From positions 1-40,216 of the IMG/VR virus record IMGVR_UViG_3300037225_000506: a DNA stretch of 40,216 nt, one strand, 5' to 3'. Shown here one piece after another: positions 3,532-40,216 of this stretch (positions are counted from its first letter, which is position 1; every line of letters begins with the position of its first letter). Source of the stretch: a virus. The position numbers and the translations under genes were made by a program. The notes below the pieces were generated by a model. That model was given only the letters and a program-made list of their open reading frames with translations. It did no database searches and was not told the DNA's origin.

Positions 3532-3746
3532 CAGCAAACCTCCAGGCGTTGAGACTGATAACGCCCCTGCCTCAGCGGAGCCGAGTGCGGGAATCGAACG
3601 TCATACGCGTAGTGGGAGTAGAGCGACCCGTCCGGCGCGTAACCAGCCATCCACCGAATCCGGCGGACGACCCCGGTCAAGCGACCTTCGTGCTTTCCGC
3701 TGAGAACTTTTACGCGTTGCCCCACGGTCAAAATGTTGATCTTCAT
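3531..3746 (-). CDS. 71-residue KOW/SH3-like protein
   Basis: ATG with GAAGGAG four to five bases upstream. The sequence VGQRVKVLSGKHEGRLTGVVR resembles a KOW-type small beta barrel, followed by tyrosine-rich strands. Such folds often bind RNA or proteins, but no specific role follows. It is the first gene after a 238-bp leader with several hairpins, so it probably opens the transcript that runs toward position 1. Confidence 0.7.
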   Translation of the reverse strand: MKINILTVGQRVKVLSGKHEGRLTGVVRRIRWMAGYAPDGSLYSHYAYDVRFPHSAPLRQGRYQSQRLEVC

Positions 3747-4212: not shown

Positions 4213-4224
4213 GTTTTTTCTCCT

Positions 4225-4545: not shown

Positions 4546-4587
4546 TAGGACGAGCCGCTCGCCCGCCCTACGCATCACCTCCTGTGG

Positions 4588-5325
4588 TTAGTCGCTGAGT
4601 GTTACGGGTTGTCCCGTCTCGCGGTACCTGCGAATGATCTTGGCCTTGCTCTCCGGGGAGAGGCGCTCGAAGGCCTCCGTCATCTCCCAGTTGGTCTCCG
4701 TCGGCGTATGGCCTGCCTTGATGTCCTCCTGGATGCGCTTGAAATGCTCCGGCTCCCCGACGCTCATCAGCGAGAGGTCGAAGGTCCGCGTCTCATCCAA
4801 CATGCGTACGGCGGGGGCGGGAGTGACGATGATGGATGATTGCCGCGCGGGGTCTTTAGCGTGAGCCAAGTCCTTCCAATGATCCGGATAGTTACATCCG
4901 CATTTGCATTTTTCTGGTAGAGATGCGGAGAACTTCTTGCTGGGCGGGTTGAACTTGATGGGAGCTGGAGGCTTGTTGCCATTGACGATGGGTGCGGGCG
5001 GTTTGCCGTTGGTCATGTCCCAGTAGATGCCGTTCGGGTCGACCTTTTTGCTCCGCGTGCTCGCGCTCCCGCTGTACCCGAAGGCGTGGTCCGCCTTGTC
5101 CGGCACCGGGGGGTTGTACTTCAGACTACCGACCGGAGGCTTGGGGAAGGCCTCGGCGGCCTCGGCCAGATGCGGGCGGATCGCGTCGAGGAGATCGGAG
5201 ACCTCGACGGCGGCGTTGGAGCAGTTCTCCCATTCACCCTCGCGCGCAGCGGTGATCGCACAAGACAGGTGTGAGGCGATGATCTTGAGGCGATGGGAAG
5301 CTTCGGATCGTGTTATCAATCCCAT
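4588..5325 (-). CDS. 245-residue hypothetical protein with proline-rich linker
   Basis: The ATG follows the stop of the upstream gene directly, and GGGAGGGG serves as ribosome-binding site. Layout: helical N-terminal domain (about 1-65, SEASHRLKIIASHLSCAIT), a Pro/Lys linker with near-repeats (NGKPPAPIVNGNKPPAPIK), a short Cys-containing segment (KCKCGCNYPDHW, possible metal site), and a helical C-terminal part (TETNWEMTEAFERLSPESK). No family recognised. It shares a transcript with the 5326-5619 gene. Confidence 0.7.
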   Translation of the reverse strand: MGLITRSEASHRLKIIASHLSCAITAAREGEWENCSNAAVEVSDLLDAIRPHLAEAAEAFPKPPVGSLKYNPPVPDKADHAFGYSGSASTRSKKVDPNGIYWDMTNGKPPAPIVNGNKPPAPIKFNPPSKKFSASLPEKCKCGCNYPDHWKDLAHAKDPARQSSIIVTPAPAVRMLDETRTFDLSLMSVGEPEHFKRIQEDIKAGHTPTETNWEMTEAFERLSPESKAKIIRRYRETGQPVTLSD

Positions 5326-5619
5326 CTAACCCCTCCCGTGAATGCAGAGGCACTCGCTGCCCGAACTGCAAGCCGGGCAGGTGCACTGGTCATCATCCCG
5401 ATAGTGACGCTTGGAAGATGCGGGACGCGCCGAGGGCTTCACCGCGCAGATGAAAGTGGTCGCGTCGTGCCAGAGGACCCGCTCCACGATCTCGCTCTTT
5501 GTCTCTCCGCTCCGCTTGGAGACGATAACGGTCGTGCCGACGGCCACGCTGCTCGGTGAGTTGAATGTCACGCGGATGCCCCAGTCTCCGCTCTTCAGTT
5601 TGGTGTATGTTGCGGTCAT
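5326..5619 (-). CDS. small WGIR-type protein with C-terminal Cys cluster, paralog of 8749-9075
   Basis: 97 residues from an ATG behind AAAAGGAGAGCAAACCTT. N-terminal half: TYTKLKSGDWGIRV, then a beta-rich domain with TVIVSKRSGETK and VERVLWHD. C-terminal half: RHYRDDDQCTCPACSSG followed by SECLCIHGRG, a four-Cys cluster. The gene at 8749-9075 has the same order and an almost identical last 25 residues, so the two arose by duplication. Role unknown; the Cys cluster suggests zinc. Confidence 0.75.
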   Translation of the reverse strand: MTATYTKLKSGDWGIRVTFNSPSSVAVGTTVIVSKRSGETKSEIVERVLWHDATTFICAVKPSARPASSKRHYRDDDQCTCPACSSGSECLCIHGRG

Positions 5620-6518: not shown

Positions 6519-6580
6519 CGTCCTCCTTCCCCATCCGTCTTCTCTCACCCTCGGCTTTGGACGAGGCGTCGGTGCGTTAG
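6519..6580 (-). promoter_or_regulatory. leader element, copy F of a recurrent family
   Basis: Minus strand: CTAACGCACCGACGCC, a CCTCG/CGAGG hairpin with loop TCCAAAGC, then GAGAGAAGACGGATGGG and AAGGAGGACG before the ATG. Aligns with copies E and G. Confidence 0.55.
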
Positions 6581-6582
6581 GA

Positions 6583-6607
6583 GAGAGGGGCCTTTCGGAC
6601 CCCTCTC
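6583..6607 (-). terminator. terminator-like hairpin after 6613-7608 gene
   Basis: Perfect 8-bp stem GAGAGGGG / CCCCTCTC with a 9-nt loop, six bases downstream of the stop codon. No long U-tract follows on the transcribed strand, so efficiency is uncertain. Confidence 0.5.
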
Positions 6608-6612
6608 GATTC

Positions 6613-7608
6613 TCAGGCGGAGTACGTCTTCGCGCCACCTGCGTTGGAGGCGTTGATGACGATGCCTTTCTTGCGGGTGTTGGACACGAAGCTCTGGAGG
6701 GATCCGAGCGTCCAGCCGGTCGCGGCGAGCAGCGAGTTGACGGTCGCGCCGCCGGGTTGCCGCATCAGCGCGAGGGCGGCGGCTCCCTTGTCTCGCGGGA
6801 GCGCCCCGTTGGGGGCCACGCGGGCGGCGCGGTTCCCAGAGGCGCGCGAGGCCTTCGCTCCGGCGGCGGCCACCGGCTTGCCGACAGGCTTCATGACTTT
6901 ATCCGACCCGGCCGCCCACGCGTAGACCGCATTGAGCACGTTCGGGAGGGTCTCCATGAACTTGTTGCCGTCGAATGCCTGCTCACCGTTGACGTCCGTC
7001 GCGATGGACACAAATCGTGCGACGGTGGTGGCCTCGGCCAAGATGGTCTTCAGCGGAGGTTCGCCGACCATCAGGTTGAGCTCCGTGCGAGGCACCAGGA
7101 TTTCACCCTCCAGGAACTCACGGTCGGCGTTGAACGTCATCCGGAAGTTAACGCCGAAGCTTTTGAAAGCGTCGTTGAAGTTGGCGAGGACCCGTTGGAC
7201 GTTGGTGACGTTTTGCCCGGGAGCAACCGCATCATCTACTTTCGGTAGGCTCTTGCCGCTCCAGATCTGCTCGTAGAGGCGGATGGCCTTCTCCAAGAAC
7301 GTGGCCTTCTCCTGCGGATACGGGGTCGAGTCGCCGACGCCCTTGACCTTTACGGCCATGTCGTAGGACTTCTGCTGTGCGGGGTTGAGCGCCGCTTGGT
7401 AGAGCAGTGGGCTGGGGCCGTTGGCCGGGCAGATTGCCTCCGCGTACCACTCGTGCGCCAGCTTCAGGCTGGTTAGCCGGTCGACCGACATCCACTCGTA
7501 TGCTGCCGTCAGGCCGGCAAGGTTCAGCGTGGGGACCGCCGCGACGATGGCCGCCGGGGGCGCATATCCGGCGTAGGTGCTTCGCCGTCCGTAGTTTCTT
7601 CGTGCCAT
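6613..7608 (-). CDS. 331-residue protein with DUF3489-like C-terminal domain
   Basis: Start at MARRNYGRRSTY behind AAAGGAGAGCAAACCC. The N-terminal 230 residues form an unrecognised helical domain (LTAAYEWMSVDRLTSLKLAHE ... FLEKAIRLYEQIWSGKS ... LEGEILVPRTELNL). Then comes an Ala/Arg/Lys-rich linker and a C-terminal domain (AALALMRQPGGATVNSLLAATGW, SLQSFVSNTRKKG) matching that of the 5739-6518 protein. The shared tail suggests both bind similar DNA or the same partner. Own leader and terminator, so probably a monocistronic, well-expressed gene. Confidence 0.7.
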   Translation of the reverse strand: MARRNYGRRSTYAGYAPPAAIVAAVPTLNLAGLTAAYEWMSVDRLTSLKLAHEWYAEAICPANGPSPLLYQAALNPAQQKSYDMAVKVKGVGDSTPYPQEKATFLEKAIRLYEQIWSGKSLPKVDDAVAPGQNVTNVQRVLANFNDAFKSFGVNFRMTFNADREFLEGEILVPRTELNLMVGEPPLKTILAEATTVARFVSIATDVNGEQAFDGNKFMETLPNVLNAVYAWAAGSDKVMKPVGKPVAAAGAKASRASGNRAARVAPNGALPRDKGAAALALMRQPGGATVNSLLAATGWTLGSLQSFVSNTRKKGIVINASNAGGAKTYSA

Positions 7609-7687: not shown

Positions 7688-8659
7688 CTAGACCGATGCC
7701 GGGGGAAGGCACAATCTGTGCACTGCCTCGACGAACTTCGTCTCGAACGCGGCTTCCGTGTTAACCACAACGCACTCCCCGCCGAGCGCCGCGCAAGCCG
7801 CCTTCAACGCGTCGTTGGGGTTCTCGTCGCCGATGTGGATGTAGTCGAGGATGATGCCGGACTGCTTGAGCACCGGCACCCATTCGGGGAGGACGTTCGT
7901 GCCGCTGTCACCGCCGTCAGAGACGACAATAAAGTGATGAAGGCCAACCGAACTGGGGTGCTTGCGGCAGCACTCGACGCCTGCACGGATAGACGCCATG
8001 ATGTCTGTCCCGCCGGAGTTGACGCTGTCCATGCCGACCTGGATTCGGTCAACCACTGCGCGGACCTCGTCCGCCGTGCCCGAGTCGAAGACAACCTTTG
8101 CGCCAGCCCCGAAGGCGATCACCGCAAGGGAAGACTGTGGGAACTTGGCGAAGCGTGCTTCGATCTCCTGCTTGGCGAGCTTGGCGACCAGCTCGATGCG
8201 GGAGGGCGGCTGCATGTGCGGCTTGCTCCAGTCGATCGCGACGTGGAAGCTGCCGATCAGGTCGTGCTGGATGACGCGGGTCTTGATCTCCTCGTCTGTG
8301 ACCGTGAAGGTTGGCGGCATGCCGGGAACCAAGGGGTCGATCATCTTGATGATTTCCTGCTGTTCCCACCCGAGGTCTTGGCCGCTCATCACTACCGCGA
8401 TGGCGTCGGCGACTTTCGCGCGGATGCTTGCCAGCCTCTCGGGCGTCCAGAGGTACTGGTCGGCGAAGCCCTTCTTGTTCTTGTCGGCGGCGATCCGCTC
8501 GCTCATGCTGCCGGACACGTCGAAGCAGAAAACCATCTTGGCAAACTCTTCATACACGCCCGTGAGTTTCTTGAGGACGCTGCTGGTGGGTTGCAGTTCG
8601 GTCTTGCGGATGGTAAGGCCCGCGTTGCCGCTGAATGTCATTGTCGAATCGAGTTTCAT
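7688..8659 (-). CDS. von Willebrand factor A domain protein
   Basis: 323 residues from MKLDSTMTFSGN behind CAAGGAGAGCAAACCAA. The vWA metal-ion-dependent adhesion site is complete: DxSxS in FDVSGSMS (Asp47, Ser49, Ser51), the threonine in GGTDIM and the aspartate in VSDGGD. The domain covers roughly residues 40-315. vWA proteins scaffold metal-dependent protein complexes; phage relatives include structural and tellurium-resistance-like proteins. No partner AAA ATPase is in the window. Its own leader suggests independent control. Confidence 0.85.
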   Translation of the reverse strand: MKLDSTMTFSGNAGLTIRKTELQPTSSVLKKLTGVYEEFAKMVFCFDVSGSMSERIAADKNKKGFADQYLWTPERLASIRAKVADAIAVVMSGQDLGWEQQEIIKMIDPLVPGMPPTFTVTDEEIKTRVIQHDLIGSFHVAIDWSKPHMQPPSRIELVAKLAKQEIEARFAKFPQSSLAVIAFGAGAKVVFDSGTADEVRAVVDRIQVGMDSVNSGGTDIMASIRAGVECCRKHPSSVGLHHFIVVSDGGDSGTNVLPEWVPVLKQSGIILDYIHIGDENPNDALKAACAALGGECVVVNTEAAFETKFVEAVHRLCLPPASV

Positions 8660-8721
8660 TTGGTTTGCTCTCCTTGAAAATAGATAATGCGGACGGGCTT
8701 GGAACCGTCCAGCCGCATTAC
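8660..8721 (-). promoter_or_regulatory. leader element, copy C of a recurrent family
   Basis: Minus strand: GTAATGCGGCT, GGACGG-TTCCAAGC-CCGTCC hairpin, then GCATTAT, which can also pair with the 5' GTAATGC to lengthen the stem. The ribosome-binding block CAAGGAGAGCAAACC and the ATG follow. It is the best-paired member of the family. Confidence 0.6.
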
Positions 8722-8748
8722 AGGGCCGAAGCCTTGTCCTCTGCGCCG

Positions 8749-21385: not shown

Positions 21386-23137
21386 TCACTCGGCGATCGC
21401 TTCGGGCATCAAGTCCTCCCACCGCTTGAACTCGACCTCTCGCTGCTTCTCGCGCCATCGAGACAAGAACTCCTCGACGGGTCCGCCCTCGTAGTCCGTC
21501 AAACTCCCCATGCAGAAGCCCGCAGACGCCTCGGCGATCAGCGGAACGTGGAGCTTGATCCCGAACTCCCGCTCGGAGTAGGCCGCTGCTCCCTCCTGCA
21601 TGAGGTGCTTGCACTGCTTGTACGCTTCTGGGAGGTCTCGCAAGTGGACTCGGAAGACCAGCGCGTCGTGGATCTCCATCAAGCATTTTTGGAGAAGCCC
21701 GTAAGTCCGCGACTTCATCTCCAGGAGGGCGAGCGCGATGAGGATTAACCCATGCGCCGAGCCTTGAATCGGACTGTTAACCGCTTGGTTCGCCCAGAAA
21801 GTCTTGCGCCCGTGCTCGTTGGTCTTGTTGATGTCCCGGCGAAACCCGTAGAGCGTCTCGACGAATCCTTCATTTTCCGCCTGGTCGTGCATCTTCTGAA
21901 TGAACGCGGCGACTCCCGTGTACGTCTTGAAGTACTTGTCGTAGAGCTTGACGAGCCGCTTGTAGGTGATCCCGGTCATGTCGGCGTTCTTCCCGTCGAT
22001 GGCCCTGATCTTGGCGACCACGTACGGGTAGAGGGACTCCCTGCCGAGGCCGAAGATGACGCCAAAGTGCATGTTCTTCACCATCTTGCGGAGGTTCTTC
22101 TCGGCTTTGATCCTCTCCACGGGCCACCCCGTGAGGGAGTTCCCGACGAGGCAGTGGATGTCCTGCCCCGTGTTGAACTGGGAGATGAGGAGCCGGTCCC
22201 CGGATATCTCCGCGAGCATCCTTACCTCGATCTGACTGTTCTGCGTGACGACGCCGCAAGCCAAAACATAGTTGTGATCCGGCTCCACCGTTATCGTGAA
22301 CATCGGTTGAGTTCCTGCCGGTTCGATGGCGATGATCTTGTGATTTAATCCGCGCTTTATTTTCTTTACGAGCCGATTAGAGTACCCGTAACTAAGGCCG
22401 AAATGATCAGCTACTTTTGAAGCTGTCCAGTTGTCGACGCATACAAACTGATGTAGGAACTGCATGTCTTCATCAGACAGTTTGCTGTTTGGGTTCCCTC
22501 GCCCGTTGTAAGAACGGCGCTTTTTAACGCCTTCTCTAAGCGCCTTGATCCTGACCGCATGATCTTGTTTCGCGTAGATGACTCTCATGTGTTCCGCTCG
22601 ATGATCGTACCTCAACTTGTACTCTAAATTTCCCGGAGAGTTGTTGGTAGGATCATCGTCTTTATGATGAACTTCATGCCCTTCTGGGCAAGGTCCCAAA
22701 TAAGCTTCGGCCACCAAATGATGCTCGTAGTCATATATGAAATGAGACCTGGAGTACCACGTCTTGTAACCTCCTCCGTTAGATCCCGGGCGACAAGGCA
22801 CCATCCGTTCCCCGATCCGTAACTCTTCTGTGGTTTTGACTACAACTCCGGAAGTTTTTCTCGCTTGTACTTTTTCCAGAGTGGGCCATCTGTGATCATA
22901 GGAAGCGATGACGGACTCATCGTTGTCGAACGTTACTTTATACGCTTTTTTCGGACGGACCGTCTTAATGCGTGTTACTGCGCCCCATTTTATTCTTCCA
23001 TCTCTGTAAGTAAGCACGGGGGTGCCGACGCTTAAGCTGCTTATCTTTACTGCCCCATTCAATGTTTGTATGAGGGTGTCCGGATGCAAGCACTGGTCGG
23101 CAGCGAGGAACACCCAGAGGTCATCGAGATCCTTCAC
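21386..23137 (-). CDS. DNA polymerase I family, C-terminal part, with intein
   Basis: 583 codons from GTG overlapping the upstream stop (GTGA). The first 15 residues end FLAADQ. A 285-residue intein follows, and the frame resumes SQIEVRMLAEISGD, rebuilding polymerase motif A with its catalytic Asp. Further motifs: RKMVKNMHFGVIFGLG (motif B/O-helix) and LMEIHDALVF (motif C, HDALVF in place of HDE). The exonuclease half and the first part of the palm are encoded at 25117-26940, so the two products must assemble into one polymerase. Spliced length is about 298 residues. Confidence 0.9.
   Translation of the reverse strand: MKDLDDLWVFLAADQCLHPDTLIQTLNGAVKISSLSVGTPVLTYRDGRIKWGAVTRIKTVRPKKAYKVTFDNDESVIASYDHRWPTLEKVQARKTSGVVVKTTEELRIGERMVPCRPGSNGGGYKTWYSRSHFIYDYEHHLVAEAYLGPCPEGHEVHHKDDDPTNNSPGNLEYKLRYDHRAEHMRVIYAKQDHAVRIKALREGVKKRRSYNGRGNPNSKLSDEDMQFLHQFVCVDNWTASKVADHFGLSYGYSNRLVKKIKRGLNHKIIAIEPAGTQPMFTITVEPDHNYVLACGVVTQNSQIEVRMLAEISGDRLLISQFNTGQDIHCLVGNSLTGWPVERIKAEKNLRKMVKNMHFGVIFGLGRESLYPYVVAKIRAIDGKNADMTGITYKRLVKLYDKYFKTYTGVAAFIQKMHDQAENEGFVETLYGFRRDINKTNEHGRKTFWANQAVNSPIQGSAHGLILIALALLEMKSRTYGLLQKCLMEIHDALVFRVHLRDLPEAYKQCKHLMQEGAAAYSEREFGIKLHVPLIAEASAGFCMGSLTDYEGGPVEEFLSRWREKQREVEFKRWEDLMPEAIAE
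22238..23092 (-). mobile_element. intein with HNH endonuclease domain in polymerase motif A
   Basis: 285 residues. Begins CLHPDTLIQTLNG (block A, Cys1), block B-like VIASYDHRW, block F-like MFTITVEPDHNYVLAC, and ends VVTQN before +1 Ser. The penultimate residue is Gln instead of the usual His. An HNH-type region lies in the middle (HHLVAEAYLGPCP, HEVHHKDDDPTNN, SPGNLEYK), followed by NPNSKLSDEDM and an HTH. Its AT content is higher than in the flanking exteins, consistent with transfer. Confidence 0.9.
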
Positions 23138-23289
23138 TCGCGCGTCACCGTCCACGACGCGCCCTCCAGGAGCGCCGTTACGTCCTCTTGAATTAGCTCT
23201 ATGACCTGGGCGTCGGACATGGATGCGAACTGCTCCTCCGTGGCCCAGAAGTCCTCTAACTCCTTGGTGACCGTGACGGAGACGCGCAT
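23134..23289 (-). CDS. 51-residue hypothetical protein
   Basis: GGGAGGGGGACTG precedes the ATG. It encodes MRVSVTVTKELEDFWATEEQ and a helical rest ending in SWTVTRE. Its stop overlaps the GTG start of the polymerase C-terminal gene, so it is translationally coupled to it. It lies between the two polymerase halves. Function unknown. Confidence 0.65.
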   Translation of the reverse strand: MRVSVTVTKELEDFWATEEQFASMSDAQVIELIQEDVTALLEGASWTVTRE

Positions 23290-23675
23290 CAGTCCCCCTC
23301 CCGGCGGTACGAGAACGGCTCCCGCATTCTGGAACCGCTGTGCCCGAGGTAGGTGCTGGTGTCGCTGCGCTCGTGGGGCCGGGTGGCACTCTCCGCCGCC
23401 GTGTTCCAGTGGAACAGCGGGTTCTCCGGAGCGCGGGTCTCCAACCAGGCGTAGTTGAAGAGGTTGCGGAGGTTCTCGGAGTTGCCGGTCCGCTCGTACT
23501 TCTCCAGCTCCTTCCGCATCCGCGTCATGTACTTCATCCTCCTGCTCGGACCGCCGTGCGGGGCCTCGTAGCGCGGGTACCCGAAGGCGAGGCGATTGGC
23601 GGCCTGCTGGACGAACTCGATGAAGTGCGGCCAGTCGTGACGGAACTTGCCGCTGCACCAGACGGTGAACTCCAT
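23289..23675 (-). CDS. 128-residue hypothetical protein
   Basis: GGAGG six bases before the ATG. It encodes MEFTVWCSGKFRHDWPHFIE..., Trp/Arg-rich, with PSRRMKYMTRMRKELEKY and LRNLFNYAWLETRAP. I do not recognise the family. It overlaps neighbours by TGATG on both sides and is part of the insert separating the polymerase halves. Confidence 0.65.
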   Translation of the reverse strand: MEFTVWCSGKFRHDWPHFIEFVQQAANRLAFGYPRYEAPHGGPSRRMKYMTRMRKELEKYERTGNSENLRNLFNYAWLETRAPENPLFHWNTAAESATRPHERSDTSTYLGHSGSRMREPFSYRREGD

Positions 23676-23839
23676 CAGTAACCTCCATCCGTGCAGTAGT
23701 CGCAGCACCCGCAGCTGCCGTCTTGACAACTCCCGCCACTACGATACTCGGCGTTCTTTTGCGCTTCTTCCGCGAGGTACCGACGAATCCGTTCTTCCCG
23801 TTCGTCGATCTTCTTGATCTCAGCAGCGATGGATATCAT
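23675..23839 (-). CDS. 54-residue protein with Cys-rich tail
   Basis: ATGA overlap with the MazG gene. N-terminal 30 residues form a charged helix (AAEIKKIDEREERIRRYLAE). The C-terminus is Gly/Cys-rich (SCQDGSCGCCDYC), able to bind metal. Function unknown. Confidence 0.65.
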   Translation of the reverse strand: MISIAAEIKKIDEREERIRRYLAEEAQKNAEYRSGGSCQDGSCGCCDYCTDGGY

Positions 23840-24252
23840 CGGTCATCTCCGTCGCCGTGAAGAGTTCCTCGTAAAACTCTCCCAGCGTATTTCTCCAGCG
23901 CGATGTCGGCTACCTCTTGAAGGGTCATCCCGAGCTCGAAAACTGTCGCTGACACGTACCACATCACGTCGCCCAGTTCTTTGCAAATGGCCAAGCGCCG
24001 TTCCTCGTTCAGGTGTCCGTCGTAGTCTCGGAGCAATTTCTTTACTTTCTCCGCCACCTCACCGCTCTCTCCGCATAGCCCCAACGCAGTATAAGGGAGA
24101 TTACTTCCTTTGTCAGGATATATGGCAGTGTCCATGCAACGCTTTTGAAACTCATTCAAAGTAAGTTGCTGGCAGACCGAGCAAAGTTTCCCAGCCGTTC
24201 CGACTTCTCGACTCTGGCACTGCGGGCAATAGTCTAAATTCGGATCTTTCAT
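23836..24252 (-). CDS. MazG-like nucleotide pyrophosphohydrolase
   Basis: 138 residues. A short N-terminal zinc ribbon (CPQC ... CSVC) precedes the MazG-type helical core: LTLNEFQKRCMDTA, LGLCGESGEVAEKVKK (EExxE-type site) and ICKELGDVMWYVSATVFEL. These enzymes hydrolyse NTPs or dNTPs, and in phages they may clean nucleotide pools or lower ppGpp. The neighbouring thymidylate synthase supports a nucleotide-metabolism role. GAGGATAAGCAA precedes the ATG. Confidence 0.82.
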   Translation of the reverse strand: MKDPNLDYCPQCQSREVGTAGKLCSVCQQLTLNEFQKRCMDTAIYPDKGSNLPYTALGLCGESGEVAEKVKKLLRDYDGHLNEERRLAICKELGDVMWYVSATVFELGMTLQEVADIALEKYAGRVLRGTLHGDGDDR

Positions 24253-24458
24253 TTGCTTATCCTCATTTCGATTGTTATCAAGTGCATCTCGGCTATGGTA
24301 TCCTTGTACCCCAAGTAAGACATCTGAGTATAAAGTGGCTCTTTGCCAGATCTCGTATGCCCCTTGACGTAAGTACAAGAAATTCCATTCACTAACTGAT
24401 ACCGGGCAAGCAGCATGAATCCAGCTAGCTTCAAAAACTCCCGTTCCCAATTCTTCAC
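24249..24458 (-). CDS. 69-residue hypothetical protein
   Basis: ATGA overlap with thyX. It encodes MKNWEREFLKLAGFMLLARY and a beta-rich rest (YVKGHTRSGKEPLYTQMSYL). No motif recognised. Its position between thyX and mazG suggests co-expression only. Confidence 0.65.
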   Translation of the reverse strand: MKNWEREFLKLAGFMLLARYQLVNGISCTYVKGHTRSGKEPLYTQMSYLGYKDTIAEMHLITIEMRISK

Positions 24459-25120
24459 CGCATCTTACTCATAGCCGCCGTCTGTTTCGTTAGTGGCTCA
24501 ATGTCATCGAACAGTATCGGAATCTTTACCTTCAGTTCAGCCAGTAGTGGAATGGTCACCTGTCGCATCTGCGGATGGGCTTCTTTGGTCGTCCGCATGA
24601 TCATAATGTGCCGAAGATTGCGGAGGTTAGTCGTCGTGATTATCCTGCTGGCAAGGGCGTTGGGAAAGACAGAGCGGGCAATCTGAGGAGCGCATCCCTC
24701 GTTGATTAACTTCTGGTACCACTTCTCGGCGTCCTCGATCCCACATATCCACGAGGCCTCTCTCGCTACCTCGTCTGGCTCCCCGTTGAAAGGCGTGATA
24801 AAGCTAGGGGGCATCTTCTTCTGGTAGTTGACAAAACGCGTACTTTCCTGTGTGAAAGCGCACAAGCGGTGCCGCACCCACTCGTGGGTAATGCCGCGGT
24901 CCACCACCATGTCGATGGTAACCGAGGCGTGCTCCACGATGCTCCAGTCCCCGTGGCCCAGAACCACGGTTTCGATGAATCGTCTCCAGGAGTCCTCGGT
25001 CTGCGCTTCTTCAGAGCGGTGGGAGATCCGCCCGCACCACTCGATCTTCTTCAGCAGCTTGACGCCGGCCTCCAGGTCGGGGACGTCCATCAGCCGCGCG
25101 TACGGCGTCACTATGTTCAT
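24455..25120 (-). CDS. thyX: flavin-dependent thymidylate synthase ThyX
   Basis: 221 residues. The ThyX signature is present as WVRHRLCAFTQESTRF (Arg83-His84-Arg85 through Ser93), with upstream FIETVVLGHGDWSIVEH and downstream NLRNLRHIMIMRTT and AHPQMRQV. It makes dTMP from dUMP using FAD and methylenetetrahydrofolate, supplying thymidine for phage DNA. The start at MNIVTPYARL overlaps the polymerase N-terminal stop (ATGA), with GAGGAGAAAT before it. Confidence 0.92.
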   Translation of the reverse strand: MNIVTPYARLMDVPDLEAGVKLLKKIEWCGRISHRSEEAQTEDSWRRFIETVVLGHGDWSIVEHASVTIDMVVDRGITHEWVRHRLCAFTQESTRFVNYQKKMPPSFITPFNGEPDEVAREASWICGIEDAEKWYQKLINEGCAPQIARSVFPNALASRIITTTNLRNLRHIMIMRTTKEAHPQMRQVTIPLLAELKVKIPILFDDIEPLTKQTAAMSKMR

Positions 25121-26940
25121 TTCTCCTCCAAAGCCAATCTCCACCGGCGGTCCGACACCATCAAGTTCTGCATCATCGGGTTCCCGTGCGTATTCTGGAA
25201 ATTGAGGATGCCCTCGGCCTCGGCCCGGTCCCCCTTGCCGCTTCGCAGCCTCCCCGTGACCGCGCCAACTAACCACCATATAGTTCTAAGTTCGCCATCG
25301 TGGAGTTCTGCGCTCCTCGCGTACCCGGCGAGGTAAGTCGACGCGATCTTGCCGATAGTCCTACGCTTCATGACTAATTCCAACACCGGGTCTCCGGTCT
25401 CAGCGAGGAGAAGTTCCAGGATCTCCTTCCCGGTCCCGCGCGTGACAGTCCCCCTCCTGTCCGTCGGCGTCGGCAGCTTCAAGACGTCGTAGAGCAGGTG
25501 GGCCACCTGCTGCGAGGAGTCGCACTCGAAGCCGGGATCGTCGGCTAACTGCCTGAGATGCCTATCTAACTCTGCGATCATCTTCGGGACTGCCTCCGAC
25601 GCTTTCTTCCAGTTTTCCCAATCAAGGATCGGCCCGCGCCGCTCCATCTTGTCGAGAGTCATCCCGGCCCTTACGTACACTTTGGCGAGAGCTTGATTGA
25701 CTTGCGGGCTAAACCTCTCTTCCAGTCGCTTCGTCACGTCACAGTCTCCGCAGTTGCGCAAGACGAGGAGATCGAGCGGCACGTTGGCATAGTTGACCGA
25801 TCCGAAAGTGCCGTCGCCGCCCGCATGTTCGATCACGGTGTCTTTGTAGTCTCCGAACTCGGGGAAGAACAGGTATGTGAGATTCTCTAATCCGCAGCTA
25901 CGAAGAAAAGAATGCCGTAGGAACGTCCCGTACATCGTGTCATAATCGTACCCTCGCAATTTGGCTCCGAGGTATATCGCGCTCGCGGCCGAGTCATATG
26001 ACCCGTTCTGGAGAGTCTTCGGAATCGATACGTCTTCTAACAAGAGTTTCAACCGCCGACGTAAACTCTCACGCGTCTTCAAATCGGAACTCGCTTCAGG
26101 ATGATCGATGACTACGGACCAAGCGCGGCCCGTCCAAGTCTTCCAGTTCCCTATGACGCGAAACTTTCCGACTCCGAATCCCGCCAGTAGCATCACTTTC
26201 TTCCCATTGACTGTTCCATCTTCTACGTCATAACTGACTCGCCGTCCGGCCTTTGCTTCGGCCTTGATGATCTTCTCCATCGCGTCGAACGTCTCGACGG
26301 ACTCTACCGCTTCGTAGCGCCTCGACTTTATGTAACCCCATCGACCGGGATTCTTTAAGATCGTTGCGACGGCCCGCAGCTTCTCCTTCCAGACGTTGAA
26401 CTCCCATCCAGCCGCTTCTCCTCTTCGCAGAAGGTATGACGGGTGCTGGAGATAAACACAATACGCATTCCACGGTTCGTGCCAAAATACCGGATGATCT
26501 TTCTTTAATGCTTTCCCGAGAAGTTGTTCTCCCGCTATATCCCCGAGTATCACGTGAACGACGGCCTCTCCGCGGTTAAGGTCGAGAGCTTCCGAGTTGT
26601 AAACGGCACAGCACTGGAGTTCCCGCTTCGTCGGGTCGCGCTCTTGGCCATCATCGGCAGGCCAGCACCTCACTCCCGCGTTCTGCACGTCGAAGTGGCC
26701 CCTCGTTAATCCGACCTCCGACAGCGCCTCCCACAAGAGCTTACCGGAGCTCCCCGACAGCTCCAAGCCCTTCGCGTTGTCGATCTTCCCCGGCCACGCT
26801 CCCCAAAGCATGGCCCGTCTGCCCTTGACGCGCGATAGTCCCTTGATCTTCTTGACTCCGGCTATACCGTCGAGGGGGCAATGCGAACACCCCAAGACTT
26901 CGCCTCGGCGGGTCACCGGCTGGTTAAACAGATTTTTCAC
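25117..26940 (-). CDS. DNA polymerase I family, N-terminal part with UDG-like and 3'-5' exonuclease domains
   Basis: 607 residues from GTG (GTGA overlap). Residues 1-195 resemble family 4-type uracil-DNA glycosylases: CSHCPLDG, GAWPGKIDNAKGLELSGSSG, GVRCWPADDG, ELQCCAVY and HPSYLLRR, with enough Cys for an Fe-S cluster. Residues about 230-420 carry a DEDD exonuclease: SYDVEDG (Exo I), NGSYDSAAS (Exo II) and DCDVTKRL (near Exo III). The polymerase part ends soon after TGRLRSGKGD and LNFQN, just before motif A. The remainder is encoded at 21386-23137. Confidence 0.88.
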   Translation of the reverse strand: MKNLFNQPVTRRGEVLGCSHCPLDGIAGVKKIKGLSRVKGRRAMLWGAWPGKIDNAKGLELSGSSGKLLWEALSEVGLTRGHFDVQNAGVRCWPADDGQERDPTKRELQCCAVYNSEALDLNRGEAVVHVILGDIAGEQLLGKALKKDHPVFWHEPWNAYCVYLQHPSYLLRRGEAAGWEFNVWKEKLRAVATILKNPGRWGYIKSRRYEAVESVETFDAMEKIIKAEAKAGRRVSYDVEDGTVNGKKVMLLAGFGVGKFRVIGNWKTWTGRAWSVVIDHPEASSDLKTRESLRRRLKLLLEDVSIPKTLQNGSYDSAASAIYLGAKLRGYDYDTMYGTFLRHSFLRSCGLENLTYLFFPEFGDYKDTVIEHAGGDGTFGSVNYANVPLDLLVLRNCGDCDVTKRLEERFSPQVNQALAKVYVRAGMTLDKMERRGPILDWENWKKASEAVPKMIAELDRHLRQLADDPGFECDSSQQVAHLLYDVLKLPTPTDRRGTVTRGTGKEILELLLAETGDPVLELVMKRRTIGKIASTYLAGYARSAELHDGELRTIWWLVGAVTGRLRSGKGDRAEAEGILNFQNTHGNPMMQNLMVSDRRWRLALEEK

Positions 26941-34015: not shown

Positions 34016-34018
34016 CTG

Positions 34019-34033
34019 CTAAATTTTACGGTT
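34019..34033 (-). promoter_or_regulatory. CCGTAWARTTA-type start-proximal motif before primase
   Basis: Minus strand reads AACCGTAAAATTTAG, 16 bases from CCG to the primase ATG. No ribosome-binding site lies between, only TTTAGCAG. Pairs with the matching motif at 35114-35127 that faces the plus-strand block. Confidence 0.5.
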
Positions 34034-34061
34034 TACAACGGCACGCAAGTTGGTGTAAGAT
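34032..34061 (+). promoter_or_regulatory. possible plus-strand promoter for the structured region
   Basis: TTTACA (34032-34037), 18-bp spacer, TAAGAT (34056-34061). Moderate match to sigma70 boxes. If used, transcription would start near 34068 and cover the structured non-coding region. Confidence 0.35.
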
Positions 34062-34067
34062 TTAATT

Positions 34068-34920
34068 GCGGTTGCGTGTACCAGGCCAGGGACGTAATCG
34101 AGAGTAAAAGTGGTCAGGGTGGGAGTTGGTACTTCAGACTTCCAGCCCCACCACCCCACTTTAAGTCTGAAATGTTATCAAAAAAGCCTCTAAACTTCTC
34201 GCCTGCCACGAACAAGCCGTTAGAGCCATATGCTCCGGCTTCCCTCCTTCAAAGCCTCCCGGCTAACCATCAAGTTCCGTTCTTCCAAGCGTACCTCGAG
34301 GGTGCTGCTTCGACGTTAACCAACCGCGTGGTGCGCTTATCTGTGCCCAACCGTTTCGGACCACGCATTGTTTTCAGCCCGTACGAAAGAGTTGTTCCTC
34401 ACATAGCGGGCGGCGCGGGAGCTACGCAGAGAACCTGCGAGATCGTGGCGCGTGGGGTGACCACAAACTCAAAAAGCAAGCTTCGTCCAGAAGGTGGATG
34501 GCGGGACGGCAAACCGACGCGAGCCGGACGGGCGGAGCTCTGCGTGATCAGCTGGACGGCGAGGAATCCCCGCCATAGGTGCGGCCTATGGGAGAGTGAA
34601 CTCGCCAGTCTGAGGTCAATTAACACGATCCTGTGCGAACGGTCCGGCGATAAGACCGGTGCTCTTGCTAAGAGAGCGTGCGGCGATGAGCCTGGATGTC
34701 TGAGACGGGGACAACATCCTCAAGCTTTTACGGAGGCGATTCAACTTATCATGCCGGTCTGCCGCGTCAAGTTCGGCGGCCAAGATCGCATGGTGAGCGA
34801 CTTCGCAGAGGACTTCAACCGTGGGGAAAGCGTTGACTTTCACCCGCACCGCAACGTAGGTCTCCTAATTCGTTTGTCTTCGCGCCTAGTTTGATTTCCA
34901 AATTCTTGATGAACTTGGTT
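34068..34920 (+). ncRNA. candidate large structured non-coding RNA (about 0.85 kb)
   Basis: No credible protein gene lies here, yet many perfect stems occur in order. An H-type pseudoknot: AAAGTGG 34107-34113 with CCACTTT 34156-34162, GGTGGG with CCCACC, and loop TTCAGACTT 34133-34141 with AAGTCTGAA 34163-34171. GCGTGGT/ACCACGC (34326-34332, 34360-34366). CGCAG/CTGCG. GGCGAG/CTCGCC (34558-34563, 34601-34606) enclosing CCATAGG-TGCGG-CCTATGG. CGGTC/GACCG. GCTCT/AGAGC. GGATGT/ACATCC. Size and setting recall the GOLLD/ROOL class of large phage RNAs, but I cannot match either. Strand is inferred only from the promoter; ends are approximate. Confidence 0.5.
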
Positions 34921-34983
34921 TCGGATTTAACGTGTCGATGAATGGGTTAGGGGGCCTACGCTTTTAAGATGATCATATGGTGA

Positions 34984-35063
34984 CTACAAGACACATACGA
35001 TCAGAACCACTAACGTGGTTCTTCTCTAGTGTCTTGTAGAGAAATCTCAAAAACGGAGATTTC
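34984..35063 (+). promoter_or_regulatory. cluster of three perfect hairpins upstream of the plus-strand block
   Basis: CTACAAGACAC (34984-34994) pairs perfectly with GTGTCTTGTAG (35029-35039). Inside is AGAACCAC-TAAC-GTGGTTCT (35003-35022). Directly after comes GAAATCTC (35041-35048) with GAGATTTC (35056-35063). Could be an RNA leader switch, an operator, or an origin structure. None is followed by a clear U-tract on the plus strand. Confidence 0.6.
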
Positions 35064-35113
35064 CTAAAGCAAAGTTCTCACTTTCACGTAAAGGGATGGA
35101 ACCAAACTGTTTG

Positions 35114-35127
35114 AACCGTATAGTTAA
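35114..35127 (+). promoter_or_regulatory. CCGTAWARTTA-type start-proximal motif of the plus-strand block
   Basis: Reads AACCGTATAGTTAA, 23 bases from CCG to the ATG at 35139. No ribosome-binding site is seen between motif and ATG. The only one of the six motifs on the plus strand, and it precedes the first plus-strand gene, which supports a promoter role. Confidence 0.6.
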
Positions 35128-35138
35128 ATGTATCGTTT

Positions 35139-35651: not shown

Positions 35652-37009
35652 AGACTCAGCAAAGCGACCGCTGGTGGGACGACGCGGATTTTCAAGACGG
35701 CCTTGTCGCGCTGTTGACGCGTGATTACCGCACGCTCAAGGACTGCGCCGCGCTCCTGGACACGGACGACTTCCAGCCGCAGAAGGGGATGCGTGATGGG
35801 CGTTCTCGCTGGATCGTGGCCGAGCGCGCGCTAGAGCACTACAAGCGGCATCGTGAGCCGGTCGGATCCCTCCTTCGCGCCGACGTTCTCCAGCACGTCC
35901 ACGGGATCGGGTTCGGGGCCGCGCAGAAGGCGGAGGTCCAGGCGTACCTCGCCAAACTAGATGCGCTTCGCACTGAGGCCCCGGCCGCCATCGTCGAGAA
36001 GGTTGTCCAATTTAAAAGCCTTCGACTCAAGGCGGCAGCGATAGAAGAGCTCGCCGATTTACATGCGTCCGGCGCGCTGACCGACGAGAAATGGTCAGAA
36101 ATTTCCAAGAAAGCCATGGCTGCGACGTGCCGGGAGACCGCCACTACGGACTACATGACGACGTTCGATTCCCGGGCCGAGCGCCGCGCCAGGAACGCGA
36201 CGCACCCGCGCGCCCCGTGGACGTTCATCGACCCGCTTGACTCCATGGTCAGCACCGTGGGTCGCAAGCAGCTCGGGATGTTCCTCGCGCCTTACAAGCG
36301 CGGGAAGAGTGCCGCGCTCCTCTGGATGGCGGCAGCCTACGCCCTCCAGAAGCTGCGCGTGCTCTACGTCACGCTAGAGGATCCGGAAGAGCTCATGGAG
36401 GACAGGCTTGACTCGATCATCACGCATGTCCCGCTGAAGCAGCTCACCGACTACCCGAAGATGACGCGGCGTAGGTTCGAGCGCCGCCGCGGGACCACGG
36501 GGATGCGCCATGGCGGGATCCAGATATATGACGGGACGGAGGGCGGGACGACGGTCGCCGTCCTGGAGTCGCTCCTAGAGACGATGCGTGACGAGGGGGA
36601 GCCGGCGGACGCACTCATCGTGGACTACGACGACGAGGTCGTGGCTTCTCAGAGGTACAAGGAGAAGCGGTTCGAGACGGACGACGTGTACCGCGGCCTT
36701 CGCGCCCTCAACGCCAAATACAACACGATTGGGTGGACGGCTGCTCAAACTCAAAGAGATACGCGGCAGTTGAAGATTCTCAGCGGCGATAAAGTGGCCG
36801 AGGACATCGGCAAGATGCGTAAGGTCACCTGCGGGCTCTCGCTCGGGAAAGGCGAGTGGACGGAGGACAGTATATTCTTGTGGGTGGCGGCACACAAGTC
36901 CGACAAGATGGACGTCGGGTGTGAGATTATTCCTGATATGCGCCGACTTTTAATTTTCGACCGCGAAGCTACTAGAAAAGCTATGAAAGAACACGGTGGC
37001 CAATCATGA
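35648..37009 (+). CDS. DnaB-like replicative helicase
   Basis: 453 residues, the usual DnaB size. The N-terminal 160 residues are helical (WWDDADFQDGLVALL). The RecA-like motor starts near 200: WTFIDPLDSMVSTVGRKQLG, P-loop LAPYKRGKSAAL (first Gly replaced by Ala), VLYVTLEDPEELM, Walker B-like ALIVDYDDEV, and WTAAQTQRD (motif H4-like). It unwinds DNA 5'-3' at the fork and works with the DnaG-like primase. Coupled by ATGA at both ends. Confidence 0.85.
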   Translation: MKTQQSDRWWDDADFQDGLVALLTRDYRTLKDCAALLDTDDFQPQKGMRDGRSRWIVAERALEHYKRHREPVGSLLRADVLQHVHGIGFGAAQKAEVQAYLAKLDALRTEAPAAIVEKVVQFKSLRLKAAAIEELADLHASGALTDEKWSEISKKAMAATCRETATTDYMTTFDSRAERRARNATHPRAPWTFIDPLDSMVSTVGRKQLGMFLAPYKRGKSAALLWMAAAYALQKLRVLYVTLEDPEELMEDRLDSIITHVPLKQLTDYPKMTRRRFERRRGTTGMRHGGIQIYDGTEGGTTVAVLESLLETMRDEGEPADALIVDYDDEVVASQRYKEKRFETDDVYRGLRALNAKYNTIGWTAAQTQRDTRQLKILSGDKVAEDIGKMRKVTCGLSLGKGEWTEDSIFLWVAAHKSDKMDVGCEIIPDMRRLLIFDREATRKAMKEHGGQS

Positions 37010-37476
37010 ATTTGGGATCGAGGCACTCCAAAGAAACACGCGCGAAAATGTCCGCTGCTCAAAGAGTTTTTTGGAGTGCCGAAGAAAACCGTAAAAAGAA
37101 ATCGGCATCTCAAAAGGCTTTATGGACTCCTGAAAAGCGCCGCGCTCAATCCGACCTTTTCAAAACCGGTGCCGTTGTAAACGGGATGACCGGGAGAAAG
37201 CATTCTAAAAAGTCTATAAAGTTGATGTCTGACGCAGCCAAGAAAAGAAAAATATCTCCTGTTGGGAAGAAACTCTCCTTAGCTGAAGGCGCCGTCGGGA
37301 TCTTAGTAGTTCAGTTGCGGTTTGGCGTTCATCACGTGATCGTCAACGGGTTGCCGGCCGACGAGTGTTACGAGACCATGGAGGCGGCGAAGCAGGCGGG
37401 CGTCGACCTCGCGCGGCGGATCATGCAGCACGCGGCGTACCAACTGGATCTCTTGAAGATGCGGGAGGAACCGTGA
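37006..37476 (+). CDS. composite protein: NUMOD3-type repeats fused to a phage protein
   Basis: 156 residues. The first 90 carry NUMOD3-like DNA-binding repeats (HSKETRAKMSAAQR, KSASQKALWTPEKRRAQ, GRKHSKKSIKLMSDAAKKR) typical of GIY-YIG or HNH homing endonucleases, but no catalytic domain. The remaining 65 residues (AVGILVVQLRFGVHHVIVNG ...) look like an ordinary phage protein. The 5' half is visibly more AT-rich. Probably a homing-endonuclease remnant fused to a host gene. ATGA and GTGA overlaps with neighbours. Confidence 0.7.
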   Translation: MNLGSRHSKETRAKMSAAQRVFWSAEENRKKKSASQKALWTPEKRRAQSDLFKTGAVVNGMTGRKHSKKSIKLMSDAAKKRKISPVGKKLSLAEGAVGILVVQLRFGVHHVIVNGLPADECYETMEAAKQAGVDLARRIMQHAAYQLDLLKMREEP

Positions 37477-40216
37477 AGCGCGCCTCTAAGCCATCGGTGG
37501 CTTCCGGGGATGCTGCGGCAAGGGGCGGGGCCGGAGAACGCGTCCTGGGAGCCCGGAGCGGCCTAGGAATGCGTCCTGCGGGGCTCCTGGAGATGGAGGT
37601 TCCAGTCTCGGTGACGATCTATGGCTCCGGCAGGCAGCCGCCGCAGACTACCGAGGTCTGCCCGACGGTGCAGGCTATCGGGATCGGCGGCGGGTTCAGG
37701 TCGCAGTACGAGGTCAACGTAGAATCAACCATGGGAGATCAAGCGATGAGCATCGGCAAGACACCGCGGGGCGGGGCGGTCACGAGGAAGACGCTGTTCG
37801 GGGAGGTGGTTATCCAGCCAGACTTCGCGGCGGTGGACGGGCGGATCGCGACCAACTGCCAATGCCCCGCTTGCGGGTACGAATGGAACGCGCCGCTCGC
37901 CAAGAAAGTCGCGCGCCCCTTGTTTGGGAAACCCGCGCCGGTGGTCACCGCCGGTTTCAGCTGCCCGAAGTGCAAGCACGCTTGGGAGGGGAAGCCGCGG
38001 GCCGCTCAGAGGTTCGGAGCCAAGGACGGGAAGTCTATAATCGCTAAGACTTCAGTCGCGGTGGAAAAACCTCTTTATCGAGTGCCGTTAATGAGCGAGA
38101 TCAAAAAGTTCTCGCGGAACGGGTTCAAGGTCGTCAGCACGTTCTCGGGTTGCGGCGGTTCTTGTACCGGGTACAAGATGGCAGGGTTCGACGTCGTGTG
38201 GGCCAACGAGTTTGTTCCGGCGGCGCAGGACTCTTACCGCGCGAACTTCCCGGACACGATCTTGGATTGTCGAGACATACGGAAAGTTACTGCAATGCAG
38301 ATCCTCAAGGCGACGGGGTTGAAGAAGGGAGAATTGGACTTGTTCGATGGATCGCCGCCTTGCTTCCCCGCCGGTGCTTTGGTGCTGGCCAAGCGTGGTT
38401 TGATTCCGATAGAGGAGATCGTTGTCGGCGATGAAGTTCTTACGCACAAAAACCGCTGGCGTTCCGTGCTACGCGTTGGGAGTAAGGAAGCCGAGACGAT
38501 CGTCTTGAAAGGTCATGGTCATTGGGGGTTGGAGACTACCAAGGAGCACCCGTTCTGGTCTCGAAGGTTGAATCAGCGTTACGTACGCTGCGGGGGCGGG
38601 AAGAGCCGCTACGTAAAGACGTGGAACGATCCGGAATGGATCGAAGCTCAGGACATGAAGAAACTGTTTTGGGCGACGCCGAACATGGTGGAAGATACTC
38701 CTTTATCGATTCCGGCCGTGGCGGGGAGAAAAGTGAACTTTAACCAAAGGTTCTGGTGGATGGTAGGACGTTGGCTCGGCGACGGTTGGATTATAAATCC
38801 GCGCCGAAACAATTTCGGTATCTGCTGTTCGCAAGAGGAAACTTCATTTTTGGAGTCTATGTTGAAGTCGGTGGCTCCGATTGCTGGATCGGGCAATGCT
38901 GGAGACGGAGAGTTGCGTTGGACGGTTATAAAAGTTAGGACCGGAACGCAGTTTAGCTGCGCTCATAAGGGTCTTGTGGAGTGGTTGCAAGACAATTTTG
39001 GTTGCGGAGCTGCTGACAAGACGATTCCGGCATGGGCGTTGACTATGAAAGATAGTTGGCGGCGTAGTCTTTTGGAGGGTTACTTTTCAGCAGACGGTTT
39101 TAAGATGAAAGAAGAGGGTCATTCAGCTATAAATACGGTAAGCAAGAAGTTGGCCGTTGGTACGCGATTGCTAGTTGAATCCCTAGGGATGACGGCTACG
39201 CTTGTTTGGCAAGACATGCCTAAGAAGACGATGATTGAAGGGAGGGAAGTAAATCAGAAACCGTTTTTTAGAGTCGCTTGGCGTTATGGGGAAACGAGAT
39301 GTGTTCAGCGGGATACTGAATATACTTGGGGCCGCGTTCGCCGTGTGCTTGATGGCAAGGAATCTGTCATTGTTTATAACATCGAAGTGGAAGAAGATCA
39401 CAGTTTTACTGTTGATGGAATGGTTGTCAAAAACTGTCAAAGTTTTTCGACCGCCGGTCGGCGCGAGAAAGGCTGGGGCAAAGAGAAGAAGTACGAGCAC
39501 GGGGCCAAGCAGATGAACGAGGACTTGTTCTTCGAGTACGTTCGCCTGCTCAAAGGGCTCCAGCCGAAGACGTTCGTGGCGGAGAACGTGAGCGGCCTCG
39601 TCAAGGGCACGGCAAAGGGGTACTTCAAGCTGATCCTCGCGGCGCTGGAGGGATGCGGGTACGAGGTCGCGGTCAAGGTCCTCGACGCGCAGTGGCTCGG
39701 CGTCCCGCAGATGCGGCAGCGCGCGATCTTCGTCGGCGTCAGGAACGACTTGGCCGCGCTGGGGTTCCACCCGGCGCACCCCGAGCCGCTGCCCTACCGG
39801 TACACGGTGCGGGAGGCGCTTCCGTGGGTCGTCAAGCCAGTTCACGGCGGTTTCTCCGTCACTAGCTGCGAGGATACTCCATCGCCGACCGTGACTTCTA
39901 CGCAGTGTAGGATGACGACTGAGGTTCCAGTCATAAAGACGCGGGTGGTCCACGACACGAGTGGTAAGGGCGGCGCGGCGGGCGTCAACAGCTACAGCGC
40001 GGGGGACATCACGGACAAGCCGTGTCCCGCAGTCACCGTGGGCGTCAACTCCTTGAACAGCTCTCACTTCCAGGTCCTGGAAGTGAGAGGGGGCGCGTCG
40101 CGTTGGAGGTCGGTTGTCTATGAGCATGAGATTCGGGCCGGGGAGCTGCGGGTCAGCGTGATGAGCACCGGGTCGATCCGGCACCAGGAGGCCGGGAGGA
40201 GGCAGAGGCTGGACGC
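37473..40216 (+). CDS. C5-cytosine DNA methyltransferase with N-terminal zinc ribbon and intein, right end cut
   Basis: Open frame from GTG (GTGA overlap) to the window edge. Possible later starts are ATG 37746 (GGGAG upstream) or 38091. Order: low-complexity segment, a CPACGYEW ... CPKCKHAWEG zinc ribbon, motif I-like VVSTFSGCGGSCTGYKMAGF, then DGSPP interrupted by an intein, resuming with the catalytic CQSFSTAG (motif IV), FVAENVSGL (motif VI, ENV) and PQMRQRAIFVGVR (motif VIII, QxRxR). It transfers methyl from S-adenosylmethionine to cytosine C5. Target unknown. Confidence 0.88.
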   Translation, partial: MKRASKPSVASGDAAARGGAGERVLGARSGLGMRPAGLLEMEVPVSVTIYGSGRQPPQTTEVCPTVQAIGIGGGFRSQYEVNVESTMGDQAMSIGKTPRGGAVTRKTLFGEVVIQPDFAAVDGRIATNCQCPACGYEWNAPLAKKVARPLFGKPAPVVTAGFSCPKCKHAWEGKPRAAQRFGAKDGKSIIAKTSVAVEKPLYRVPLMSEIKKFSRNGFKVVSTFSGCGGSCTGYKMAGFDVVWANEFVPAAQDSYRANFPDTILDCRDIRKVTAMQILKATGLKKGELDLFDGSPPCFPAGALVLAKRGLIPIEEIVVGDEVLTHKNRWRSVLRVGSKEAETIVLKGHGHWGLETTKEHPFWSRRLNQRYVRCGGGKSRYVKTWNDPEWIEAQDMKKLFWATPNMVEDTPLSIPAVAGRKVNFNQRFWWMVGRWLGDGWIINPRRNNFGICCSQEETSFLESMLKSVAPIAGSGNAGDGELRWTVIKVRTGTQFSCAHKGLVEWLQDNFGCGAADKTIPAWALTMKDSWRRSLLEGYFSADGFKMKEEGHSAINTVSKKLAVGTRLLVESLGMTATLVWQDMPKKTMIEGREVNQKPFFRVAWRYGETRCVQRDTEYTWGRVRRVLDGKESVIVYNIEVEEDHSFTVDGMVVKNCQSFSTAGRREKGWGKEKKYEHGAKQMNEDLFFEYVRLLKGLQPKTFVAENVSGLVKGTAKGYFKLILAALEGCGYEVAVKVLDAQWLGVPQMRQRAIFVGVRNDLAALGFHPAHPEPLPYRYTVREALPWVVKPVHGGFSVTSCEDTPSPTVTSTQCRMTTEVPVIKTRVVHDTSGKGGAAGVNSYSAGDITDKPCPAVTVGVNSLNSSHFQVLEVRGGASRWRSVVYEHEIRAGELRVSVMSTGSIRHQEAGRRQRLD
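37500..37590. repeat. GC-rich repeat copy in the methyltransferase N-terminal region
   Basis: Contains GAACGCGTCCTGGGAGCCCG (37537-37556) and CTAGGAATGCGTCC (37563-37576). The first aligns with the reverse strand of the copy in the SbcD gene (AACGCGTCCTAGGGGCTC). In frame it encodes KPSVASGDAARGGAGERVLG, comparable with the SbcD insert. Confidence 0.4.
38361..39434 (+). mobile_element. intein with LAGLIDADG endonuclease at the methyltransferase catalytic cysteine
   Basis: 358 residues. Block A CFPAGALVLAKRGLIPIEEI, block B-like LETTKEHPFWSR, two LAGLIDADG helices (WWMVGRWLGDGWI and SLLEGYFSADGF), block F VYNIEVEEDHSFTVDG, and block G VVKN before +1 Cys. Penultimate Lys replaces the usual His. 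The +1 Cys is the catalytic Cys of the PCQ motif. Codon use is less GC-biased than in the extein. Confidence 0.93.

Follow-up and report, generated by a model that had tools for sequence, protein, structure and literature searches.

A noncoding stretch with strong hairpins at its 3′ end between divergent replication operons of a phage fragment

Does the gap between two divergent operons of a phage hold a large structured RNA, a gene, a replication origin, or a spacer? The window, i.e. the whole stretch of DNA analysed, is an entire IMG/VR virus record of 40,216 bases and represents a phage fragment. Its genes have phage replication and nucleotide functions; they encode DNA polymerase pieces, thymidylate synthase, an SbcC-like exonuclease, a 5′-3′ exonuclease, primase and a DnaB-like helicase, as well as a cytosine methylase with an intein-type domain. 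The primase block runs leftward from 34015 and the helicase block rightward from 35139. The ~1.1 kb separating these divergent operons show neither triplet periodicity nor codon bias nor protein homology.

The replication genes of the window host several mobile elements. The DNA polymerase is split across two frames, one part with an HNH endonuclease region, with the thymidylate synthase in between (21386-26940, minus strand), and the cytosine methylase has Hint and LAGLIDADG domains (37365-40214, plus strand). At 8693-8745 (minus strand), the Rfam model RF02684 detects a type-P5 twister ribozyme (49.7 bits). A probable start with the Shine-Dalgarno sequence AAGGAG near 8656 lies a short distance downstream of it. 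In addition, inverted copies at 3575-3602 and 36160-36187 resemble the T-arm and 3′ half of a tRNA (GTTCGATTCC).

The coding potential of the gap was estimated in several ways. The mutual information between base and codon position in 34172-34894 is 0.0097 bits (chi-square p 0.14), compared with 0.014-0.15 bits in known genes of the window, of which some pieces have values of only 0.014-0.02 bits. With respect to codon usage, the stretch scores 0.035 bits per codon, versus 0.115-0.48 for genes. Searches of all six frames against Pfam and PHROG yielded nothing credible, only chance matches with E values of 0.2-0.8, and no protein relatives were found in phages, IMG/VR or GTDB genomes. The original prediction had seen no credible gene here. 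Periodicity, codon score and homology agree with this view, but it overlooks a plus-strand frame that is free of stops over 292 codons (34016-34894), a length equalled by one of 3000 dinucleotide shuffles of 34016-35138. The stretch is thus noncoding by all tests except this long open frame. A 77-aa frame on the minus strand (34616-34849) is protein-like in appearance; it was rejected, having no relatives.

The long frame could belong to a protein gene that is an orphan or was acquired recently, in which 240 codons (34172-34894) would be translated with a codon usage that is not yet adapted. Besides its length, a weak periodicity within 34720-34894 (p 0.015) is compatible with such a gene. However, the periodicity is absent overall, the codon score is near zero, and Pfam, PHROGs, phages, IMG/VR and GTDB genomes contain no match, so that we regard a gene as unlikely. 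Selection of a protein-like kind is not detectable either. A single-sequence AlphaFold2 model of the 240-aa frame has a pLDDT of 36, a value that is uninformative because the protein would be an orphan.

For the RNA level, folding energies were compared with those of shuffled sequences. The plus strand of 34068-34966 has an MFE z value of −3.07, and none of 60 shuffles folded as well. With its lack of triplet periodicity and codon bias, this interval is a candidate noncoding transcript of ~0.9 kb with putative ends. For comparison, thirteen 675-nt pieces of the remaining window were folded on both strands, resulting in a mean z value of −0.89 (sd 1.27) and an sd of 1.14 for the difference between the strands. 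When both end hairpins are excluded, the body of the stretch (34176-34850) has values of −1.13 on the plus strand and +0.95 on the minus strand. Hence, the body folds at the level of background coding DNA, with a mild preference of ~1.7 sd for the plus strand, and a structure is not demonstrable in it.

GOLLD and ROOL could not serve as positive controls, as neither scored in 14 control genomes, and the noncoding RNA of phage ICP1 was substituted. The ORF-less gap of ICP1 has a z value of −2.26, and its interior a value of −1.68. Because this proven RNA scores similarly weakly, the folding energy neither supports nor refutes a long noncoding RNA at the locus under study.

The individual elements that had been put forward fared differently. 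The predicted eight or more perfect stems exist, but their number is within the range expected by chance: with a minimum of 6 bp and a maximum loop of 30, the stretch has 8 such stems, dinucleotide shuffles have 4.9 ± 2.0, and 8 of 60 shuffles have at least as many as the stretch. The longest of these stems has 9 bp, a length also attained by the shuffles. The nested element of GGCGAG/CTCGCC around CCATAGG/CCTATGG is indeed found in the sequence (34559-34611, plus strand); the z value for 34538-34620 is −1.8, and 9 of 200 shuffles fold equally well. Near the 5′ end, a hairpin composed of AAAGTGG/CCACTTT and GGTGGG-GTTGG/CCAGCCCCACC (34107-34171, plus strand; z −3.9 for 34095-34175) had been interpreted as part of an H-type pseudoknot. 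The complementary 9-mers are located as claimed, i.e. TTCAGACTT (34133-34141) can form 9 bp with AAGTCTGAA (34163-34171), to which it is exactly complementary. However, zero nucleotides would be left to span a stem of ~20 bp, and therefore the pseudoknot requires that the lower stem AAAGUGG/CCACUUU is open. As judged from this geometry, the pairing of TTCAGACTT with AAGTCTGAA is an alternative fold to the lower stem, and is incompatible with it in intact form.

These results bear on the view that the locus encodes a new large ornate phage RNA comparable to GOLLD or ROOL, in which the whole 0.9 kb fold into one defined structure with pseudoknots and which is abundant during infection. The size and the ORF-less gap have precedents (PMC7567579, PMC12286853). 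The z value of the whole plus strand, which no shuffle matched, and the 5′ hairpin with its alternative pairing would also be in line with it, as would the fact that even the ICP1 RNA, an abundant transcript, attains no stronger score. In contrast, the body alone is at background level, and the number of stems is at the level of chance. GOLLD and ROOL are often neighbours of tRNA islands, whereas ARAGORN found no tRNA genes in the 40-kb window, which is itself a fragment. The GOLLD covariance model (RF02032) covers the conserved 3′ half of that RNA. Neither GOLLD nor ROOL (RF03087) nor any other Rfam family matches the stretch, at the gathering threshold or at an E value of 10. No GOLLD and no ROOL were detected in 13 relative records, in searches that had no positive control.

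A new class also requires relatives. None were found among phages and plasmids, where the DNA showed no similarity, nor in IMG/VR, in GTDB genomes or among 26 records of related phages, and BLAST of the relatives' loci revealed no second copy. Covariance models built from the single sequences of 34480-34620 and 34849-34970, which have a limited reach, matched only the window. Three short matches were rejected: a 20-nt near match in one genome is a chance hit located in an apparently coding stretch; for the 16-mer GGTGACCACAAACTCA, all 16 loci share the seed or a few bases only, mostly inside open frames; and the match to the 17-mer GAGAGTGAACTCGCCAG in two loci does not extend. As the collections searched contain no relative, and hence offer no covariation, the class claim is unproven. 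That large phage RNAs of a new class are represented by 34068-34966, combining a switching 5′ hairpin with a 106-nt 3′ hairpin and confined to an unsampled phage lineage, is in our estimation improbable, about as much as a protein gene.

The strongest structure of the locus is this 106-nt hairpin (34855-34960, plus strand). It was missed in the original prediction, the boundary of which, at 34920, cuts through it. The hairpin consists of 24 uninterrupted pairs (34855-34878/34937-34960) and is followed by CTTTTAAG; its z values are −7.3 on the plus strand and −3.4 on the minus strand. For comparison, the longest stem in 60 shuffles has 15 bp. Seventeen of the pairs are Watson-Crick pairs and seven are G-U pairs, and all seven of these non-Watson-Crick pairs are G-U on the plus strand. 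If transitions had decayed a perfect inverted repeat and either strand were equally likely, the probability of this distribution would be 1/128. This bias argues for selection on the hairpin as plus-strand RNA, as judged from a single sequence that has no close relatives.

Two further hairpins follow. A two-tier inverted repeat, CTACAAGACAC...GTGTCTTGTAG enclosing AGAACCAC/GTGGTTCT, with 11 and 8 perfect pairs, is located at 34984-35039, and a third hairpin, GAAATCTC/GAGATTTC, with 8 perfect pairs at 35041-35063. The region 34940-35070 has z values of −5.3 on the plus strand and −7.3 on the minus strand.

Potential signals for transcription were found on both sides of the gap. The motif RACCGTAWARTTW recurs shortly 5′ of six start codons in the window, including those of the primase and helicase operons, and is probably a phage promoter, as suggested by these positions. 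A matrix scan places the sites at 4223, 12631, 21364, 30685 and 34018 on the minus strand and at 35114 on the plus strand. They have the six highest scores in the window; these scores are not independent because the matrix was built from the very same six sites. The copy in front of the leftward primase operon is AACCGTAAAATTTAGC (34018-34033, minus strand), and that in front of the rightward helicase operon is AACCGTATAGTTAAAT (35114-35129, plus strand), the top match in the window and a member of the training set. In addition, a weak sigma70-like promoter, TTTACA-18-TAAGAT, with 9 of 12 consensus matches is present at 34032-34061 on the plus strand. It would start a transcript near 34068; 0.7 such sites are expected by chance in the region, and it may thus be a chance occurrence. 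The hairpins are not accompanied by a recognised canonical terminator, i.e. one with a U-run. Several of the readings of motifs and spacings were picked after inspection of the data.

Taken together, we give about an even chance to the explanation that a noncoding spacer specific to this lineage separates the divergent operons, that its plus strand is transcribed from ~34068 to the 106-nt hairpin, and that the hairpins insulate the helicase promoter. Each of the two operons has its own copy of the promoter-like motif. The plus strand of the stretch is most likely transcribed; transcription would start at about 34068 and would end at the hairpin 34855-34960, and this hairpin and the two following ones would terminate transcription, or act as insulators, ahead of the helicase promoter at 35114. 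What was observed directly comprises the hairpins and the motif, as well as the absence of coding signal and of relatives. The results of the noncoding tests, a hairpin beyond the range of the shuffles, hairpins before the operon in relatives (see below) and the background level of the body count in favour of a spacer. The 292-codon open frame, a sigma70-like site that may be due to chance and the lack of a U-run terminator count against it.

Relatives of the locus were collected via an alignment of the helicase, resulting in 29 loci with identities of 30% or more and three additional weak ones. They were drawn from one collection, and the window as well as the relatives are mostly fragments. 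The 29 loci share the gene order helicase-primase-exonuclease, and the closest one, L090, has a helicase identity of 48%. The content of the site before the operon varies among these loci. In L090, a noncoding stretch of 0.65 kb with strong hairpins (z −7.9 on the plus strand and −7.2 on the minus strand) separates a leftward gene from the rightward operon. Strong hairpins of differing sequence are located directly before the helicase operon in L090 (8494-8622), L094 (9259-9390), L097 (8340-8400) and L101 (8945-9080). In L094, only ~80 nt separate the leftward ORF from the first hairpin, which leaves no space for a 0.9-kb RNA; the 0.9-kb body is therefore not a feature of the family. Comparison of these loci indicates that several members have hairpins preceding the operon, and that the 0.9-kb body is lineage-specific as far as the collections show.

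The relatives exhibit further elements. Repeat arrays precede the helicase operon in L105/L006, L099 and L100. Those of L006 (5780-6600, identical to L105 8780-9600; 22 units) and L100 (8615-9040; ~12 units) are regular, with units of 36-39 nt that contain the conserved boxes GTAyCG (GTAACG) and GAAAGATTyG, the remainder being variable. Both lie in noncoding DNA ahead of the helicase operon, in two phages from different metagenomes, and could represent binding sites of the kind found at origins, an RNA array, or a novel element. L099 has looser, GT-rich arrays before the helicase operon (4570-5430 and 6570-7085), with GGCAGATnnG units every ~48-75 nt. A type II hammerhead ribozyme (Rfam RF02276, 40.4 bits) is present at L094 5728-5795 on the minus strand.

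Similarly improbable is a replication origin at which the transcript would act as primer or control RNA, as in ColE1 or at RedRock-like mycobacteriophage prophage origins. RNA-based origins are known in phages (PMC7157519), and the position between the primase and helicase operons, the inverted repeats at the DNA level and the binding-site-like arrays of some relatives would suit an origin, but this reading lost its main support because the GC-skew switch follows gene direction in the relatives, with two relatives of ~125 kb running one way throughout and a third (89 kb) having its skew minimum away from the site, and no partition or repA gene was recognised nearby.

If the 0.75-kb body is functional, the stretch is perhaps a functional long noncoding phage RNA, for which, by analogy, the ICP1 type would be the nearest model. 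In ICP1, gp139 and gp140 are separated by 1 kb without ORFs, from which a noncoding RNA of ~800 nt arises, the most abundant transcript in infection (PMC7567579). The two loci have in common the phage context, an ORF-less gap of ~1 kb, the lack of an Rfam family at threshold and weak folding (z −2.3 for ICP1). They differ in that the ICP1 RNA was seen by RNA-seq, whereas the stretch in the window is known from its sequence alone and ends in a very strong hairpin. The Kayvirus lncRNA1 and lncRNA2, with regions of 570 and 525 bp and a function that is unknown (PMC7698491), are likewise long noncoding stretches within a phage genome; they were seen by RNA-seq and adjoin tRNA genes, in contrast to the stretch between two replication operons. 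GOLLD and ROOL share the size class and the phage setting with the stretch, which differs from both by the lack of a match at an E value of 10 and of any covariation, and from GOLLD also in having no tRNA genes in the window and no family. At the RNA-based origins of extrachromosomal mycobacterial prophages, a noncoding RNA with a proposed primer function is also located beside an operon (PMC7157519). Those regions are required for prophage replication and adjoin parABS, a context not seen in the window.

Several phages produce abundant long RNAs with unknown function, of which few classes have been defined, and this locus adds a further orphan candidate. The main lesson is that folding energy by itself decides nothing for such candidates, since a proven phage long noncoding RNA scores about equally. 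Standing by itself in the gap between the operons and marked by a distinct 3′ hairpin, the locus would be a clean test case if relatives emerge.
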